Positions 29,766-63,410 of a stretch of DNA of 64,000 bases are shown one piece after another. Source of the DNA: Desulfobacterales bacterium (lineage in GTDB: Bacteria > Desulfobacterota > Desulfobacteria > Desulfobacterales > Desulfosalsimonadaceae); NCBI GenBank assembly GCA_018335195.1, contig JAGXKN010000006.1, positions 1 to 64,000 of the forward strand. Direction: 5' to 3'. A program made the translations under genes and the position numbers. Below the pieces are notes generated by a model. That model ran no database searches. It saw only the letters and a list, made by a program, of their open reading frames with translations, and was not told the origin of the DNA. Numbering within the stretch: the stretch's first letter is position 1; each line of letters begins with the position of its first letter.

Positions 29766-30068
29766 GGCGGGCTCCTTTTATGTTGAAATGGCAGTGTATC
29801 AGGCCTGATAGATCCGGCCGGGATTTTAAAACAGCGGAAATGAGATATTTATCAGACCGCGCATGCATTGCGCAAGGCGGAACTTTCGCGGCGGATTTGT
29901 TATCGAGATGGTTGTCGGGATCGGAATCGGTTTTTTCCTGCGCATTCGATGCCGATTTTGTTTTCGGGCCCGGGCCGGATGATTTTATCTTTGCAAATGA
30001 TTCGAAATGGGATAATAATGAGGTATATCAATTTTTTGTACCATAGACCGGAAAATAAGGATGAAGAG
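29766..30068. other. Divergent intergenic region
   Basis: Separates the aminopeptidase (minus) from the PilZ gene (plus), so both promoters should be here. I see no convincing -35/-10 pair. An open frame crosses it into the PilZ gene but looks non-coding. The 3' third is A/T-rich (near 29985-30045). A GATCGGAATCGG-type tract near 29915 resembles ones in other spacers. Confidence 0.45.
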
Positions 30069-30470
30069 ATGGCAGAGTCCAGGAAAATCAAAAGGGAGTT
30101 GACGGTATCGCCCCTTGCCTCGGAGCTGATTGATGCCGTGGTAAAAATGTCCCCGGAGCAACAGCGGGAGCTGTTGGCCGAGTTAATGGCCAGCAAGGGC
30201 GCCGCCCGGCGAAAATATTCCAGGCATCCCTACCGTCACGAAGTCCAGTTTTCCGTAGACGGGAAACTCTTCACCGGCTTTATCAGGAACGTAAGCGACG
30301 GAGGGGCTTTTGTGGAAACCCTGCGCTCGGACCTGGGCCGGCTTGACCGGGGCCGGCAGGTAACCATGTCCTTTGAACATCCCGTTAACCAGAAGAATAT
30401 CAAGCGCACCGGTGAGATCGCCCGCACCAGCCAGGACGGCATCGGCGTTGCCTTCGACAAGCTCCTGTAG
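30069..30470 (+). CDS. PilZ-domain protein
   Basis: Likely cyclic di-GMP receptor. It has 133 residues. A short helical N-terminus (KRELTVSPLASELIDAVVKMSPEQQ) precedes a PilZ domain with both ligand motifs: RKYSR (RxxxR) and NVSDGGAFVE (the D/NxSxxG strand). I choose the ATG at 30069, with AAGGA seven bases upstream; an upstream in-frame ATG at 30018 has no such site. The same window encodes a diguanylate cyclase (11619-12752), but nothing links the two directly. Confidence 0.9.
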   Translation: MAESRKIKRELTVSPLASELIDAVVKMSPEQQRELLAELMASKGAARRKYSRHPYRHEVQFSVDGKLFTGFIRNVSDGGAFVETLRSDLGRLDRGRQVTMSFEHPVNQKNIKRTGEIARTSQDGIGVAFDKLL

Positions 30471-30650
30471 GCGCTAAGGCCGTACCCGCCACTCCGTCCC
30501 CCCATTTCCCCAACCGGCAGACGTTTCCTGTTGTCGAAATCGAATTCGGATGAAACATACCGATTCCGATCGCGAAAACGACGACGAATTATCATGTGGT
30601 TGCCGTTGCTTTTCCCTTTTGCCCCGTAAAAAAGCAAATTGACGCTTCCT

Positions 30651-30751
30651 GGATTTTCGCAGGGTCGGACCGGCGGGGAAGTTTGCGCATCTGCCGTCCG
30701 CTTTCGCGCCCGATGCATCTGCGCAAAACACCTCGCCGTCCCGCCCTGTCC
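30651..30751 (+). repeat. Foldback repeat (block 1), copy 1
   Basis: 101 bases, aligned without gaps to 62826-62926 with seven differences by hand count. The left arm GGGTCGGACCGGCGGGG plus GTTTGCGCATCTGC pairs with the right arm GCATCTGCGCAAAAC plus CGCCGTCCCGCCC, giving a long imperfect hairpin. A CCGTAAAAAAG leader precedes it, as in the other copy. It codes for nothing recognisable. Confidence 0.8.
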
Positions 30752-30862
30752 TAACCCCCCTGCAGTTGCCACCGTCCAGTTCCGAAAGGCTTCAAAATCC
30801 CCGGAGTTCAAAGACAAACCCTCTGGATTTGCAAGCCTGAATCAGCCCGTGGTAAGCTAGTC

Positions 30863-31135
30863 GGATTTTCTCGTGCGGAGATTGCCGGGGCTGCCGCATG
30901 GCGCATTGCACGAGGGTCGGAGCAGCTCTTGGCAAAGCTGAGCAGGCGGCCGGGTTTGTTTGAGCCGACAAGCGAGTTTGCCGAGCCGCCACGATGCGAG
31001 CCATAGAGATGCCCGGCCCGAGTGCAGCGACAGGCGGTTGCCCCGGCAAGCAAAGAATGCGGCGCGGCATTGAAGGCTGTTTTTCCCAGAGGCTTTCAAT
31101 ATTGTCAGGCTTTGCAAAAAAATCGGGGAGCCTGG
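30863..31135 (+). repeat. Conserved non-coding segment (block 2), copy 1
   Basis: Aligns with 63081-63355. The first ~104 bases differ at eight positions (hand count) and similarity continues to the GCAAAAAAAT motif near the end. Stems that can form in both copies include GCTGC/GCAGC (near 30891 and 30923), AGCT-TT/AAAGCT, and GGCGGC (30946) with GCCGCC (30986). A minus-strand frame stays open in both copies, but most base changes alter its residues. That argues for an RNA or DNA element rather than a protein. Strand is arbitrary. Confidence 0.6.
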
Positions 31136-31220
31136 TTTTCCGGGGCGGGAAGTCGGGGCAATGATACCGGGTCGGGTTTGTGCTTGCAAAGCCGGTCGTT
31201 TTCCCATAAAAAATGGGCTT

Positions 31221-32003
31221 ATGAGTTACGTGTTTGATTTTCATGATGCGCAGGATTACGAGCGCTGGCTGGCAGACGAAAAAAACCGGATGATACTGGA
31301 TCTGCAGCAGCGGCTCATGGTGGGGATGATGCGTCCCGGAGTTGCCCAGAGCATCCTCGATATAGGGTGCGGCACCGGGGCAAGCCTGATGCCTTTTTTA
31401 AATAAGGGCATTGAGCTCACCGGGATCGATCCTTCGCCCTACATGCTGGATGCGGCCGGCAGAAACCTGGGCCATCGCGCGGATCTGCACCGGGGTTTTG
31501 CCGAGGATCTCCCGTTTGCGGATAATTCCTTTCATTACAGTGTGATTTTTCTGACCCTGGAGTTCTGCGATGATCCCCGCAGGGCACTGGAAGAGGCCTG
31601 CCGCGTGACAAAGGATCGGTTGTTTGTCGGCATTTTCAATCGCTTTTCCCTGTATGCGGCCCATCGCCGGATGATGCGGCTGCTTAAACCGTCCGTTTAT
31701 TCGTATGCCCGGTTTTTCAGCATCGGTGAAATCCGCCGGATGATCTTCGCTCACCTCGGAAAAGTCCCTCTGGAATGGAAAACCGTGTTCCAGCTGCCCT
31801 GGCTCCCCTCAGAGCTTACACACAGAATCGAGTCCACGAAAATGTTTCAATCCAGCCCGTTTGGCGGATTTGCCGGTATCACGGCAGATCCCGTCCCCCG
31901 GTTTCGGGCGTTTCCGTTGGCCCTCAAATGCCGGGTCAATCATGCAGGTTGCTCAGGTGAACGGGTGGCCAGTTGTGCCGGTGACTACCAGAATGAACAA
32001 TGA
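31221..32003 (+). CDS. Class I SAM-dependent methyltransferase
   Basis: A 260-residue protein of the methyltransferase 11/25 type. The SAM-binding site is seen in SILDIGCGTGASLMPF, then ELTGIDPSPYML, and HYSVIFLTLEFCDDPRRALEEACRV. The substrate is unknown. A C-terminal part rich in aromatic and basic residues (VPLEWKTVFQLPWLPSELTHRIE) resembles methyltransferases near radical SAM genes. I choose the ATG at 31221. No good ribosome binding site precedes it, and the non-coding repeat ends about 85 bases upstream, so the true 5' end is uncertain. Confidence 0.82.
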   Translation: MSYVFDFHDAQDYERWLADEKNRMILDLQQRLMVGMMRPGVAQSILDIGCGTGASLMPFLNKGIELTGIDPSPYMLDAAGRNLGHRADLHRGFAEDLPFADNSFHYSVIFLTLEFCDDPRRALEEACRVTKDRLFVGIFNRFSLYAAHRRMMRLLKPSVYSYARFFSIGEIRRMIFAHLGKVPLEWKTVFQLPWLPSELTHRIESTKMFQSSPFGGFAGITADPVPRFRAFPLALKCRVNHAGCSGERVASCAGDYQNEQ

Positions 32004-61266: not shown

Positions 61267-62589
61267 TTATGCATCGCTTTTTTCAATTACCGGAAACGTG
61301 GCCCCGCCGTCGGGAAATATCGCCACCCGGGCGTTTTTCTTGAGCTTTTTTGCACCGGCTGAAATGACCGCTTCAGGGGTCTTGCAGTTGTGAAAAAAAC
61401 CCAGGTGCCGGACTTCGGTATCCGAAAGTGCGGGCACATGGAAAAACAGCCGGTATTCCCGGATCAGGCGCATGGAGTAATAGGTCAGAAACCGCTCCTC
61501 CACGTTTAAGCCCTTTTTGATGGTATTTAAAAACCCCATCACGTTGGATTTGCCCACGGCCTTCAGGATGGTGCGCAAAACCGCAAGGGGCGGGGGCTTG
61601 TCCGGCAGCGGGATGTCGTCCATCCCCCGTGCGGCGCGCAGAAAGCCCATCACGACACCGCCGGGCTGCAGCGCCGGCAGGGCGTTGCCCACGCACTTCA
61701 TGCTCTGCTTGAAGTTGATGTCCATTGGATGGGAATTTACGATCACCGCATCCATGGGACCATCCAGCCGGACGCCCGCCACTTTCCGGTTGAATTCCAC
61801 GCCCCTGCGGTGGGCGGAAACCGGGTCGCCGGCAAAAGCGGCCGCGATTTTCCGGTTTTCATCAAGCAGAACGTTTAAAGCAAAAATATCCGCCCGGATC
61901 AGATTCCTTGTTTCTTCCAGGTCCTGTCTGAACGTGTTTTCATCCGGTGCCATGCCCACCCGGTTAAACCGGTAGGGCGGCTCGGCGATCATGCCGTGGT
62001 GATGGCCGATGGCCTCGGCTGCGGCAACGCCGGGAAACAGGTTTTTCATCCCGCCGCCGAAGCCGGCCCAGAGATGTGGCTCGATCATGCCCGCCAGGAT
62101 CACCAGGTCGCTTTCATGCACTTTTTTATCCAGCACGACCGGTGTTGCCCGGCTTGTTTTGCCGAAATCGTGATGGCGGGAGGGATCAAAAGCATCCGGG
62201 TTGGACCAGGAAACGCGCTTCAGGTTGTCCGCCCCGATTTTTTCAGCCATTTCTGACTCGGTCATTGGGGTGTGAATGCCCAGGGCCGGCATTACGTGAA
62301 TTTTTCCGGTCCCGACCCGTTCCAGGGAATCAAGCAGCAGGTGGAAGAAACGATGGGCCGGCGTGGGCCGGGTATTATCATCCACGATGATCAGAACCGT
62401 TTTGCCGGAAAGGTCCTTTTCGGAAAGCGCCCGGCTGTCTTCCGGGTTTTCCAGGGCGGTCTGCACGATTTCGGTTTCTTCTTCCCGGACCCGCCCGGAG
62501 ATGTCCACGCGCTCCGGCAGGTGCACCTGCCAGGAATCAGGCAGCGAAAGTGCCAGAAATTCTTCTCCCCATGGCAGTTTGATTTCCAT
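61267..62589 (-). CDS. larA: LarA-family lactate-racemase-like protein
   Basis: Nickel-pincer-cofactor racemase/epimerase fold (DUF2088/LarA). It has 440 residues. The pincer-linked and catalytic positions are kept: DDNTRP at 71-76, His106 (GIHTPMT), His172 (EPHLW) and Lys182 (GGGMKNLFPG), offset by two from the Lactobacillus enzyme. The substrate is unknown, as LarA homologues act on several 2-hydroxyacids. No larB, larC or larE is nearby. The ATG at 62589 has GAGG seven bases upstream; the frame continuing upstream is not needed. Confidence 0.9.
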   Translation of the reverse strand: MEIKLPWGEEFLALSLPDSWQVHLPERVDISGRVREEETEIVQTALENPEDSRALSEKDLSGKTVLIIVDDNTRPTPAHRFFHLLLDSLERVGTGKIHVMPALGIHTPMTESEMAEKIGADNLKRVSWSNPDAFDPSRHHDFGKTSRATPVVLDKKVHESDLVILAGMIEPHLWAGFGGGMKNLFPGVAAAEAIGHHHGMIAEPPYRFNRVGMAPDENTFRQDLEETRNLIRADIFALNVLLDENRKIAAAFAGDPVSAHRRGVEFNRKVAGVRLDGPMDAVIVNSHPMDINFKQSMKCVGNALPALQPGGVVMGFLRAARGMDDIPLPDKPPPLAVLRTILKAVGKSNVMGFLNTIKKGLNVEERFLTYYSMRLIREYRLFFHVPALSDTEVRHLGFFHNCKTPEAVISAGAKKLKKNARVAIFPDGGATFPVIEKSDA

Positions 62590-62825
62590 TTTGCGGCCTC
62601 TTTGTTTTGACGGGTGAGCGACTTGGAATCCTGTTACTGATTGATATATCAGATCATTGACTTTTGTCCCACAGGTTTTTTCAAGCACAGCATTTCCCCC
62701 TTTTCCTTGTCGAAATCGGTATCGGACGAAAAATACCGATATCGACAACGGCAACGCCTTGTGGCTTGATTGGCGTTATTTTTTAGATCCGCTGCGCCCT
62801 GTAAAAAAGAAACCCGACTCTTTCC

Positions 62826-62926
62826 GGATTTTCGCAGGGTCGGGACGGCGGGGAAGTTTGTGCATATGCCGTCCGCTATCGCGCCCGATGCATCTGCGCA
62901 AACCACCCCGCCGTCCCGCCCTGTCC
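62826..62926 (+). repeat. Foldback repeat (block 1), copy 2
   Basis: Same 101-base element as at 30651-30751. Here the hairpin is nearly perfect: left arm GGGTCGGGACGGCGGGG plus GTTTGTGCATATGC; right arm GCATCTGCGCAAAC plus CCCCGCCGTCCCG. It begins 237 bases upstream of larA, in a 919-base gap without genes (62590-63508). Confidence 0.8.
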
Positions 62927-62980
62927 AACCTCCTCGACAATTCCACCAATATAGTCCCGAAAGGCTTCAATTGTCCTGGC

Positions 62981-63050
62981 GTAGGGGCGAACCCGTGTGT
63001 TCGCCCTCTCTCCGATCAAAGATACAGGTTCGCCCCTACGGATATTCATT
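62981..63050. repeat. REP-like GGGCGAACC element, copy 3
   Basis: GTAGGGGCGAACC (62981-62993) pairs perfectly with GGTTCGCCCCTAC (63027-63039). Within it, GGGCGAACC-CGTGT-GTTCGCCC forms a second pairing. TACGGATATTCATTTGTCAATG follows and resembles the flank at 36800. It is the most complete copy in the window. Confidence 0.8.
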
Positions 63051-63080: not shown

Positions 63081-63355
63081 GGATATTATCGTGCGGGGAT
63101 TGACGGGGCTGCCGCATGGCGCATTGCACGAGGGGCGGCGCAGCTCTTGGCGAAGCTGAGCAGGCGGCCGGCTTTGTTTGAGCCCGCGATAGCAGGCGAT
63201 TTTGCCGAGCCGCCGCGAAGCGAGCCTTAGAGATGCACGGCCCGAGTGCAGCGACAAGCGGTTGTCCCGGCAAACGACGCTCGCGGATAAGCGTTGACGA
63301 CCCGGGTTTTTTCCAGATGTTTTCAACATAGGAATGCGCTGCAAAAAAATATCAG
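63081..63355 (+). repeat. Conserved non-coding segment (block 2), copy 2
   Basis: Aligns with 30863-31135 along its length, best over the first ~190 bases. An internal hairpin differs in sequence but is still present (GCCCGC-gata-GCAGGC here). The outer GGCGGC/GCCGCC and GCTGC/GCAGC stems are kept. It follows the foldback and the REP-like element at 62981. Strand is arbitrary. Confidence 0.6.
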
Positions 63356-63362
63356 GCTTCAA

Positions 63363-63410
63363 GGCTTTTCGCAGGTTCGGGCCGGCGGGGAAGTCTGCGC
63401 ATCTGCCGTT
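63363..63410 (+). repeat. Foldback repeat left arm, second copy
   Basis: TTTTCGCAGGTTCGGGCCGG then CGGGGAAGTCTGCGCATCTGCC repeats the left arm of the foldback at 62826. Only the left half is present. It lies after block 2, so block 2 is flanked by two left arms, as a composite element would be. Confidence 0.65.

Follow-up and report, generated by a model that had tools for sequence, protein, structure and literature searches.

A long hairpin core carried by MITE-like repeats with differing ends in Desulfobacterales and other bacteria

Two segments of the window (the whole stretch of 64,000 nucleotides of contig JAGXKN010000006.1 that was analysed) resemble each other at 30863-31135 and 63081-63355. 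The sequence-only reading of this DNA described them as a structured non-coding RNA or an element that moves as DNA, of no known family. The question raised by the locus is which of these it is, and why such a segment should be conserved.

The repeat unit in the window and in its own genome

Full-length alignability of the two segments was borne out by local alignment (score 295; the best of 200 dinucleotide shuffles reached 31), and the eight differences counted within their first 104 bases were reproduced exactly. The "distant second copy" was an underestimate: the 273-bp segment, used as a query, matched 31 places in its own genome (3.29-Mb assembly, 99 contigs). Ten of the 31 matches were nearly full length with 78-100% identity, the query itself counted, and several were located at contig ends. 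In longer copies the similarity started approximately 200-235 bp farther upstream and included additional shared modules; the coordinates 30863-31135 cut a larger unit. Contigs C28, C97, C41 and C4 of this genome (G000) start within the repeat, which probably broke the assembly there, and true copy numbers may be higher.

The layout of the unit was determined by comparing 13 copies with their flanks and by running consensus sequences of the modules over the window and 44 further loci, 45 sequences in all. The modules were arranged in the order E-A-B-(C or C2)-D5-D3-E, at times followed by a new A, and many copies were without one or more of them. The segment first noticed corresponds to D5-D3-E. 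Module A alone gave 45 matches in the genome, and module D was shortened in units L017, L018, L022, L026, L028 and L067. In many units C2 was replaced by module C, a REP-like palindrome (GTAGGGGCGAACC...) that has the look of a small independent repeat lodged within the larger unit. The palindrome of module T (TCGAAATCGGTATCGGA...ATACCGATATCGA) was located upstream of both window copies and of two other scanned loci, L019 and L076. Upstream of copy 2 lies a gene for a lactate-racemase-like (Lar_N) protein (61270-62754, minus strand). Features of both copies are collected in Table 1.

Table 1. Positions of the repeat modules and hairpin features in the window
Feature	Position	Strand	Basis or remark
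Copy 1, hairpin core	30900..31032	+	covariance model R1, E 3.2e-34 in genome search; long-hairpin fold
Copy 1, module D5, hairpin left arm	30866..30966	+	module scan, 96% identity to consensus
Copy 1, module D3, hairpin right arm	30972..31062	+	module scan, 92%
Copy 1, loop ii 5' side, CTTGGC AAA GC (consensus GAA)	30928..30938	+	column conservation
Copy 1, loop ii 3' side, GCGAGCC	30996..31002	+	column conservation
Copy 1, loop iii and apical hairpin, TTGTTTGAG ... GCGAGTTT	30956..30979	+	column conservation
Copy 1, module E, tail	31068..31145	+	module scan, 75%
Copy 1, module A, hairpin of ~98 bp	30654..30751	+	module scan
Copy 1, module B	30756..30804	+	module scan
Copy 1, module C2, alternative to C	30802..30852	+	module scan
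Copy 1, module T, small palindrome, not always present	30531..30564	+	module scan
Copy 1, stretch without counterpart at the G003 orthologous locus	30509..31171	.	insertion ends approximate
Copy 2, hairpin core	63118..63256	+	R1 match, E 1.8e-36
Copy 2, module D5	63086..63184	+	module scan
Copy 2, module D3	63195..63286	+	module scan
Copy 2, module E	63294..63375	+	module scan
Copy 2, module A	62829..62926	+	module scan
Copy 2, module C, GTAGGGGCGAACC palindrome, REP-like	62979..63006	+	module scan
Copy 2, module T	62707..62750	+	module scan
Further module A beginning after copy 2	63366..63409	+	module scan

Window copy 1 is an insertion. It lies between a PilZ-domain gene (29868-30467) and a methyltransferase gene (31221-32000), which are adjacent in sister species too. 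The methyltransferase gene was found in seven of the nine genomes of the genus, own included (G007 and G008 gave no match). All five sister species in which both flanks aligned (G002, G003, G004, G005 and G006) had 64-75 bp between the flanks, as against 663-764 bp in the window; the limits of the absent stretch were wider in G002, G004, G005 and G006 (30432/30433 to 31182/31195) than in G003. The repeat was present at the same place in G001, where the contig stops within it. For copy 2 the downstream gene was found in three of nine genomes (own included); G001 has the unit there and G003 a different sequence.

Structure, coding potential and strand of the hairpin core

The plus strands of the two window copies folded better than shuffled sequences (z -5.55 and -3.58), as did the minus strand of copy 1, the copy for which that strand was shuffled (z -3.30). 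The central part, referred to as the core, is a long hairpin of approximately 135 nt. Twenty cores were aligned with MAFFT without use of structure, and RNAalifold placed 36 pairs on this alignment, 21 of them with changes on both sides. Covariance model R1 was made from the same alignment and searched against 85 chosen loci, giving 93 matches. In the resulting alignment, which unlike the 20-core one was fitted to the model, 94.2% of 2779 helix cells were paired, compared with 35-43% when one side was slid. Double changes were present at 31 of the 31 helix pairs counted (five doubtful apical pairs were omitted), and the covariation score was 0.773 as against 0.199 in shuffles. Many copies with compensatory changes, the support asked for in the sequence-only reading, were found, and the core has the conserved, covarying secondary structure expected of a functional RNA. 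Compensatory changes in long palindromes can also come from templated correction of one arm by the other.

Two internal loops were nearly invariant. Loop iii has TGTTTGAG before and CGAGTTT after the apical hairpin; its columns (84-91 and 123-128) were nearly invariant in the 86 of 93 rows having the loop. The seven copies without it included all four from G005, G006 and G007. Loop ii, farther down the stem, reads GGC-GAA-GC/GC-RA-GCC, with GCA/AA in place of GAA/GA in G034 and G063. At one loop position each window copy departed from the consensus: copy 1 has AAA instead of GAA, and copy 2 has GATTTT instead of GAGTTT. Each loop consensus could set 5'-GA-3' against 5'-GA-3', a putative tandem G.A motif. 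From Desulfobacterales to Clostridia the shape of the core appears, from the aligned copies, to be kept more than its sequence.

Some copies departed from the common form. Diverged copies in G005, G007, G008, G015, G020 and G023 (genus and family) were hairpins of approximately 170-200 nt. In genus g8 many cores were arranged in inverted or divergent pairs, with at least 14 minus-then-plus pairs in G015 whose starts were 300-760 bp apart. Four cores of the same orientation lie within 1.5 kb in G034 (C1:889262-890684). Locus L035, compared with L041 (both G023), has the outer stem of the hairpin without approximately 171 bp inside, probably through a deletion at the hairpin base.

The core is non-coding. 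Open minus-strand frames over both window copies, as reported in the sequence-only reading, were present (150 and 116 aa in copy 1; 94 and 75 aa in copy 2). Among the 83 of 93 aligned copies that had the anchor motif, core lengths were spread over the three remainders of division by three (34, 28 and 21) and no frame was open in more than 43; both results agree with the earlier view that the conserved thing is not a protein. Searching Pfam with the minus-strand frames gave nothing above cut-off (DUF1525 was sub-threshold, E 0.095), and the 116-aa frame had no encoded relative in viral contigs. These open frames and the sub-threshold DUF1525 match are what a coding remnant of a transposon, or a small protein gene, can claim in its favour; with no Pfam match above cut-off, no conserved frame, a core length that is not a multiple of three and nothing related to the 116-aa frame encoded in viral contigs, that explanation was rejected as having next to no probability.

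One strand seems to be constrained, and is probably the favoured one, because G-T mismatches exceed A-C mismatches. The plus-strand fold was more stable than the minus-strand fold in 91 of 93 copies, by a mean of 12 kcal/mol. Mismatches on the 31 helix pairs comprised 55 G-T and 28 A-C cells (of 2779). When the arms of 187 copies were aligned without energy rules, 131 G-T and 71 A-C mismatches were counted (p 3e-5) and more G-T was present in 78 copies, more A-C in 30; as the copies share ancestry, mismatch p-values are optimistic and overstate the evidence. By block, the ratios of G-T to A-C were 14:2 in G034, 12:3 in S144/M17, 9:2 in g8, 4:0 in G001, 18:13 in bin73-type genomes and kin, 8:6 in Clostridia, 2:1 in G008, 1:1 in G000 and 16:16 in the phylum loci; 64 of the 187 copies were outside these blocks. 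An earlier, stricter arm test gave 14 G-T to 6 A-C in 33 copies (p 0.12). An excess of G-T over A-C is likewise expected of single-stranded DNA.

Distribution, carrier elements and neighbourhood

Matches to R1 were found in 23 of 79 genomes of relatives (own included), in 10 of 53 genera, and in 31 of 395 genomes of the phylum (own included; eight candidates per genome were scored). A second model, R2, matched 42 of 391 Clostridia genomes, Fonticella included, some of them by one weak match. Pattern scanning of named genomes gave at least 113 stretches, of which 80 were used as loci. Those listed were mostly from Desulfobacterales, with other "Deltaproteobacteria" and "Pseudomonadota" MAGs, Smithella, Syntrophaceae, and one Thermodesulfovibrionales MAG. 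A copy was listed also for the isolate Fonticella tunisiensis DSM 24455 (Clostridia by taxonomy), where it folds with both loops. R2 matched S144_17 at least 150 times (150 of 150 scored candidates), bin73 66 times, Fonticella 47 times, bin233 38 times, the Thermodesulfovibrionales MAG 33 times, and two Smithella MAGs 7 and 12 times. The loop motif was present in 17 of 19 Clostridia loci inspected. Copies of three subfamilies had no match in plasmids, copies of two subfamilies none in phages, and the exact core pattern none in viral contigs; plasmid or phage cargo was rejected on these results.

Around the core, the terminal inverted repeats (TIRs) of the carrier elements read CAACTTTCGACTTTCA, GTATCTATTCAGCG and CRGGCTGTTGCC. 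The one-contig genome G034 had 18 elements with both ends (236-243 bp, ends CAACTTTCGACTTTCA), and the 19-base form of this end occurred 353 times with at most three mismatches, compared with 0 for the reversed pattern. Target-site duplications (TSDs) of 7-8 bp were perfect in 6 of the 18, five more had one mismatch in 7, and the other seven were without; the mean TSD score was 3.94 as against 0.88 in shuffled pairings (22 loci given, 18 with both ends). In MAGs S144_17 and M17 the ends were GTATCTATTCAG.../...CTGAACAGTTAC, the S144-type element measuring ~227 bp, and a perfect 8-bp duplication flanked 9 of the 13 elements whose two ends were found among 17 cores, compared with 1.3% in shuffles; a single orthologous insertion accounts for two of the nine. 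These ends and the 8-bp duplication are, we assume, reminiscent of the IS66 family. The bin73-type MAGs (titled Deltaproteobacteria, Pseudomonadota, Proteobacteria, Desulfobacterales or Desulfobacteraceae) had ends CRGGCTGTTGCC, and a perfect 4-bp duplication was found in 13 of 27 elements versus 2.0 expected and a maximum of 6.75 in 2000 shuffles; these 27 are the elements with both ends among 34 loci. Of the three TSDs the 4-bp one is the least certain, since its offset and length were picked after a scan. Still other ends surrounded the core in Clostridia genomes. Ends of three or more kinds, which differ in duplication length (4, 7 and 8 bp), thus enclose the same core.

The features by which MITEs are recognized were distributed as follows. 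TIRs were present in G034, S144/M17, bin73-type and Clostridia elements; TSDs were present in related elements of other genomes, as distinct from the window copies; coding capacity was absent; and presence or absence between relatives was seen for window copy 1 (absent in 5 of 5, present in G001). Mean identities of the outer arms within and between copies were 0.62/0.56 in G673, 0.59/0.45 in G556, 0.64/0.57 in G607, 0.60/0.65 in G584 and 0.63/0.45 in G015. Copy-specific outer arms as the sign of a special insertion mechanism were dropped as an idea, the Clostridia outer arms having resembled shared TIRs.

Context was examined at the 60 of 80 named loci with enough flank, frames being kept longest-first. 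Fifty-six of the 60 cores were free of frames of at least 100 aa, and the remaining four were overlapped only by frames of 100-117 aa. The 388 neighbouring frames at 80 cores held no group of similar proteins beyond four loci, with which a single transposase neighbour is still compatible; an autonomous transposon did not turn up in the analysis. Fifty-one loci had genes on both sides, in the same orientation as the core at 13, opposite at 20, convergent at 9 and divergent at 9, without significant bias. Terminators and riboswitches were rejected as candidates for want of a significant orientation preference in this set (60 of 80 loci tested, 51 with flanking genes). Rfam 15 gave only a tRNA when the window was scanned at gathering thresholds, and permissive scans of 8 and 6 loci gave chance-level matches, none over the core. 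Known Rfam RNAs (introns, riboswitches and others) were rejected accordingly, and the statement that no family fits holds within these scans.

Explanations and related repeats

As to the choice left by the sequence-only reading, the empty sites and the TSDs of related elements settle that this is mobile, MITE-like DNA, and the hairpin is indeed conserved; its role as RNA is what we infer. On balance it is probable, with room for doubt, that the repeat is a non-autonomous MITE-like element around a long hairpin core, that the core is common to many MITE families with unrelated ends, and that it functions single-stranded, probably as RNA. The elements would move as DNA by means of transposases supplied in trans, another transposase for each end type. 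The core would be kept since its plus strand, once single-stranded, folds and is bound through the internal loops, each of which could form tandem G.A pairs. The likeliest single strand would be RNA, transcribed either from the element or as read-through of adjacent genes, and serving as a hairpin for protein binding or processing whose presence would render the element tolerable or useful; single-stranded DNA during replication is the second candidate. RNA is favoured over single-stranded DNA because TSDs and TIRs imply that transposition is double-stranded, and a folded strand serves no purpose there. Unrelated elements may have captured the core, or ends may have been exchanged around it. 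A wider proposal is put forward tentatively: a widespread structured RNA with G.A-rich loops could be the cargo module of unrelated non-autonomous transposons, a selfish RNA that repeatedly gains new ends or is acquired by transposons since, once folded, it would engage a conserved host protein and so help the element persist.

These elements could instead be pure DNA foldback MITEs with no single-strand function, whose arms are corrected against each other and whose loops are an accident of common descent. The TIRs and target duplications, the very few wobble pairs (the 55 G-T and 28 A-C of 2779 cells) and the hairpins without their inside (L035 against L041) are all as such elements would have them. 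Correction from arm to arm on double-stranded DNA should, however, be symmetric and erase mismatches in the loops, and neither was seen: the loops hardly vary between Desulfobacterales and Clostridia and the G-T excess is strand-specific. With the same core also carried by unrelated ends, this explanation is judged fairly unlikely. Quite unlikely, in turn, is a core that is the single-stranded DNA substrate of a recombinase or transposase, like attC sites and REP sequences, with the loops as recognition features. It draws on the preference for one strand and on the 5'-GA-3' present on both sides of each loop consensus; 5'-GA-3' opposite 5'-GA-3' pairs well in DNA too. When replication strand was assigned from skew sampled at 20 places per chromosome, the plus strand was lagging in 26 and leading in 10 G034 copies (p 0.011 over the 36 of 42 copies that could be scored, four of which form a local cluster), which is also in its favour, yet the second chromosome, G470, was unbiased (13 lagging and 15 leading among 28 scorable of the 31 copies listed out of 66). 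The direct target duplications and the TIRs suggest enzymes that cut both strands. No neighbouring protein recurred in more than four of 80 loci, and the sole Y1_Tnp match in the own genome has an internal stop. As to integron attC sites, which stand in arrays with an integrase and have R/L boxes, what was observed is that copies of the core are scattered.

A host regulatory RNA family (terminator, riboswitch or RNA thermometer) amplified at gene borders would explain the structure, the intergenic position and the wide distribution. It is disfavoured as very improbable: neighbouring genes are mostly unrelated, related elements have TSDs, copy 1 is absent from five sister species, and the want of an orientation preference towards genes weakens a role as cis-regulatory RNA.

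MITEs, foldback repeats and structured repeats of the bcr1 sort have been described before. Like MITEs, the present elements are short, non-coding, multicopy and intergenic, with inverted-repeat ends and target duplications. Unlike usual MITEs, they share one structured core across unrelated ends and 4-, 7- and 8-bp duplications, and have conserved internal loops with one strand seemingly favoured. BOX elements of Streptococcus are modular, with a fixed order and optional modules, as is the present unit; their sequence and host are different, and we know of no conserved loops in them. Searches of the open literature, sequence words included, brought up no earlier account of the core or of its occurrence between unrelated ends in distant phyla. 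Bacterial MITEs are usually regarded as empty transposon shells. A core whose shape is kept across differing ends and duplications would place the inside of the shell under selection, and the two loops and the one strand would offer a handle on what host protein or transposase recognizes in such repeats, of which a genome may hold up to 150 or more copies. Hairpins of similar shape in unrelated mobile elements of distant bacteria suggest an undescribed role of the folded strand.

The bcr1-bcr3 repeats of the Bacillus cereus group are described as interspersed, intergenic and similar to MITEs in structure and function; the source further reports transcription of bcr copies (all 18 families) for 84 of 165 and 62 of 155 in two strains, and conserved secondary structure in some families (PMC3446304). 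A title cited there gives bcr1 as specific to that group (PMC3446304), whereas the present core, compared with it by description, occurs in Desulfobacterales and Clostridia at the least. The "multicopy nucleotide sequences" of Geobacter are, by their description, unnamed intergenic repeat families of related bacteria, some of them palindromic (PMC2700814, PMC2996986), and are possibly an earlier, unnamed sighting of the core. A Thiomargarita MITE, likewise compared by description, is a long hairpin on more than 100 contigs, some copies of which end in a direct repeat; it is tied to a group I intron, unlike the present core (PMC4853749).

BIME/REP sequences, REPINs and GTAG-tagged REPs (the last the subject of PMC3733652) resemble the core in being palindromes that at times form inverted pairs, and module C starts with GTAG. 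Their palindromes are of 20-40 nt as against approximately 135 nt in the core, and REP/BIME sequences with RAYT are mobilized by a Y1 transposase without target duplication, unlike the relatives of the present elements, which have TSDs and no recurrent neighbouring protein. A REP/RAYT system was rejected for the core on its length, the TSDs and the interruption of the lone Y1_Tnp. That gene, a single RAYT-like match in the own genome (L071, G000:C23:20733-21062) with an internal TGA, may have served the REP-like module C.
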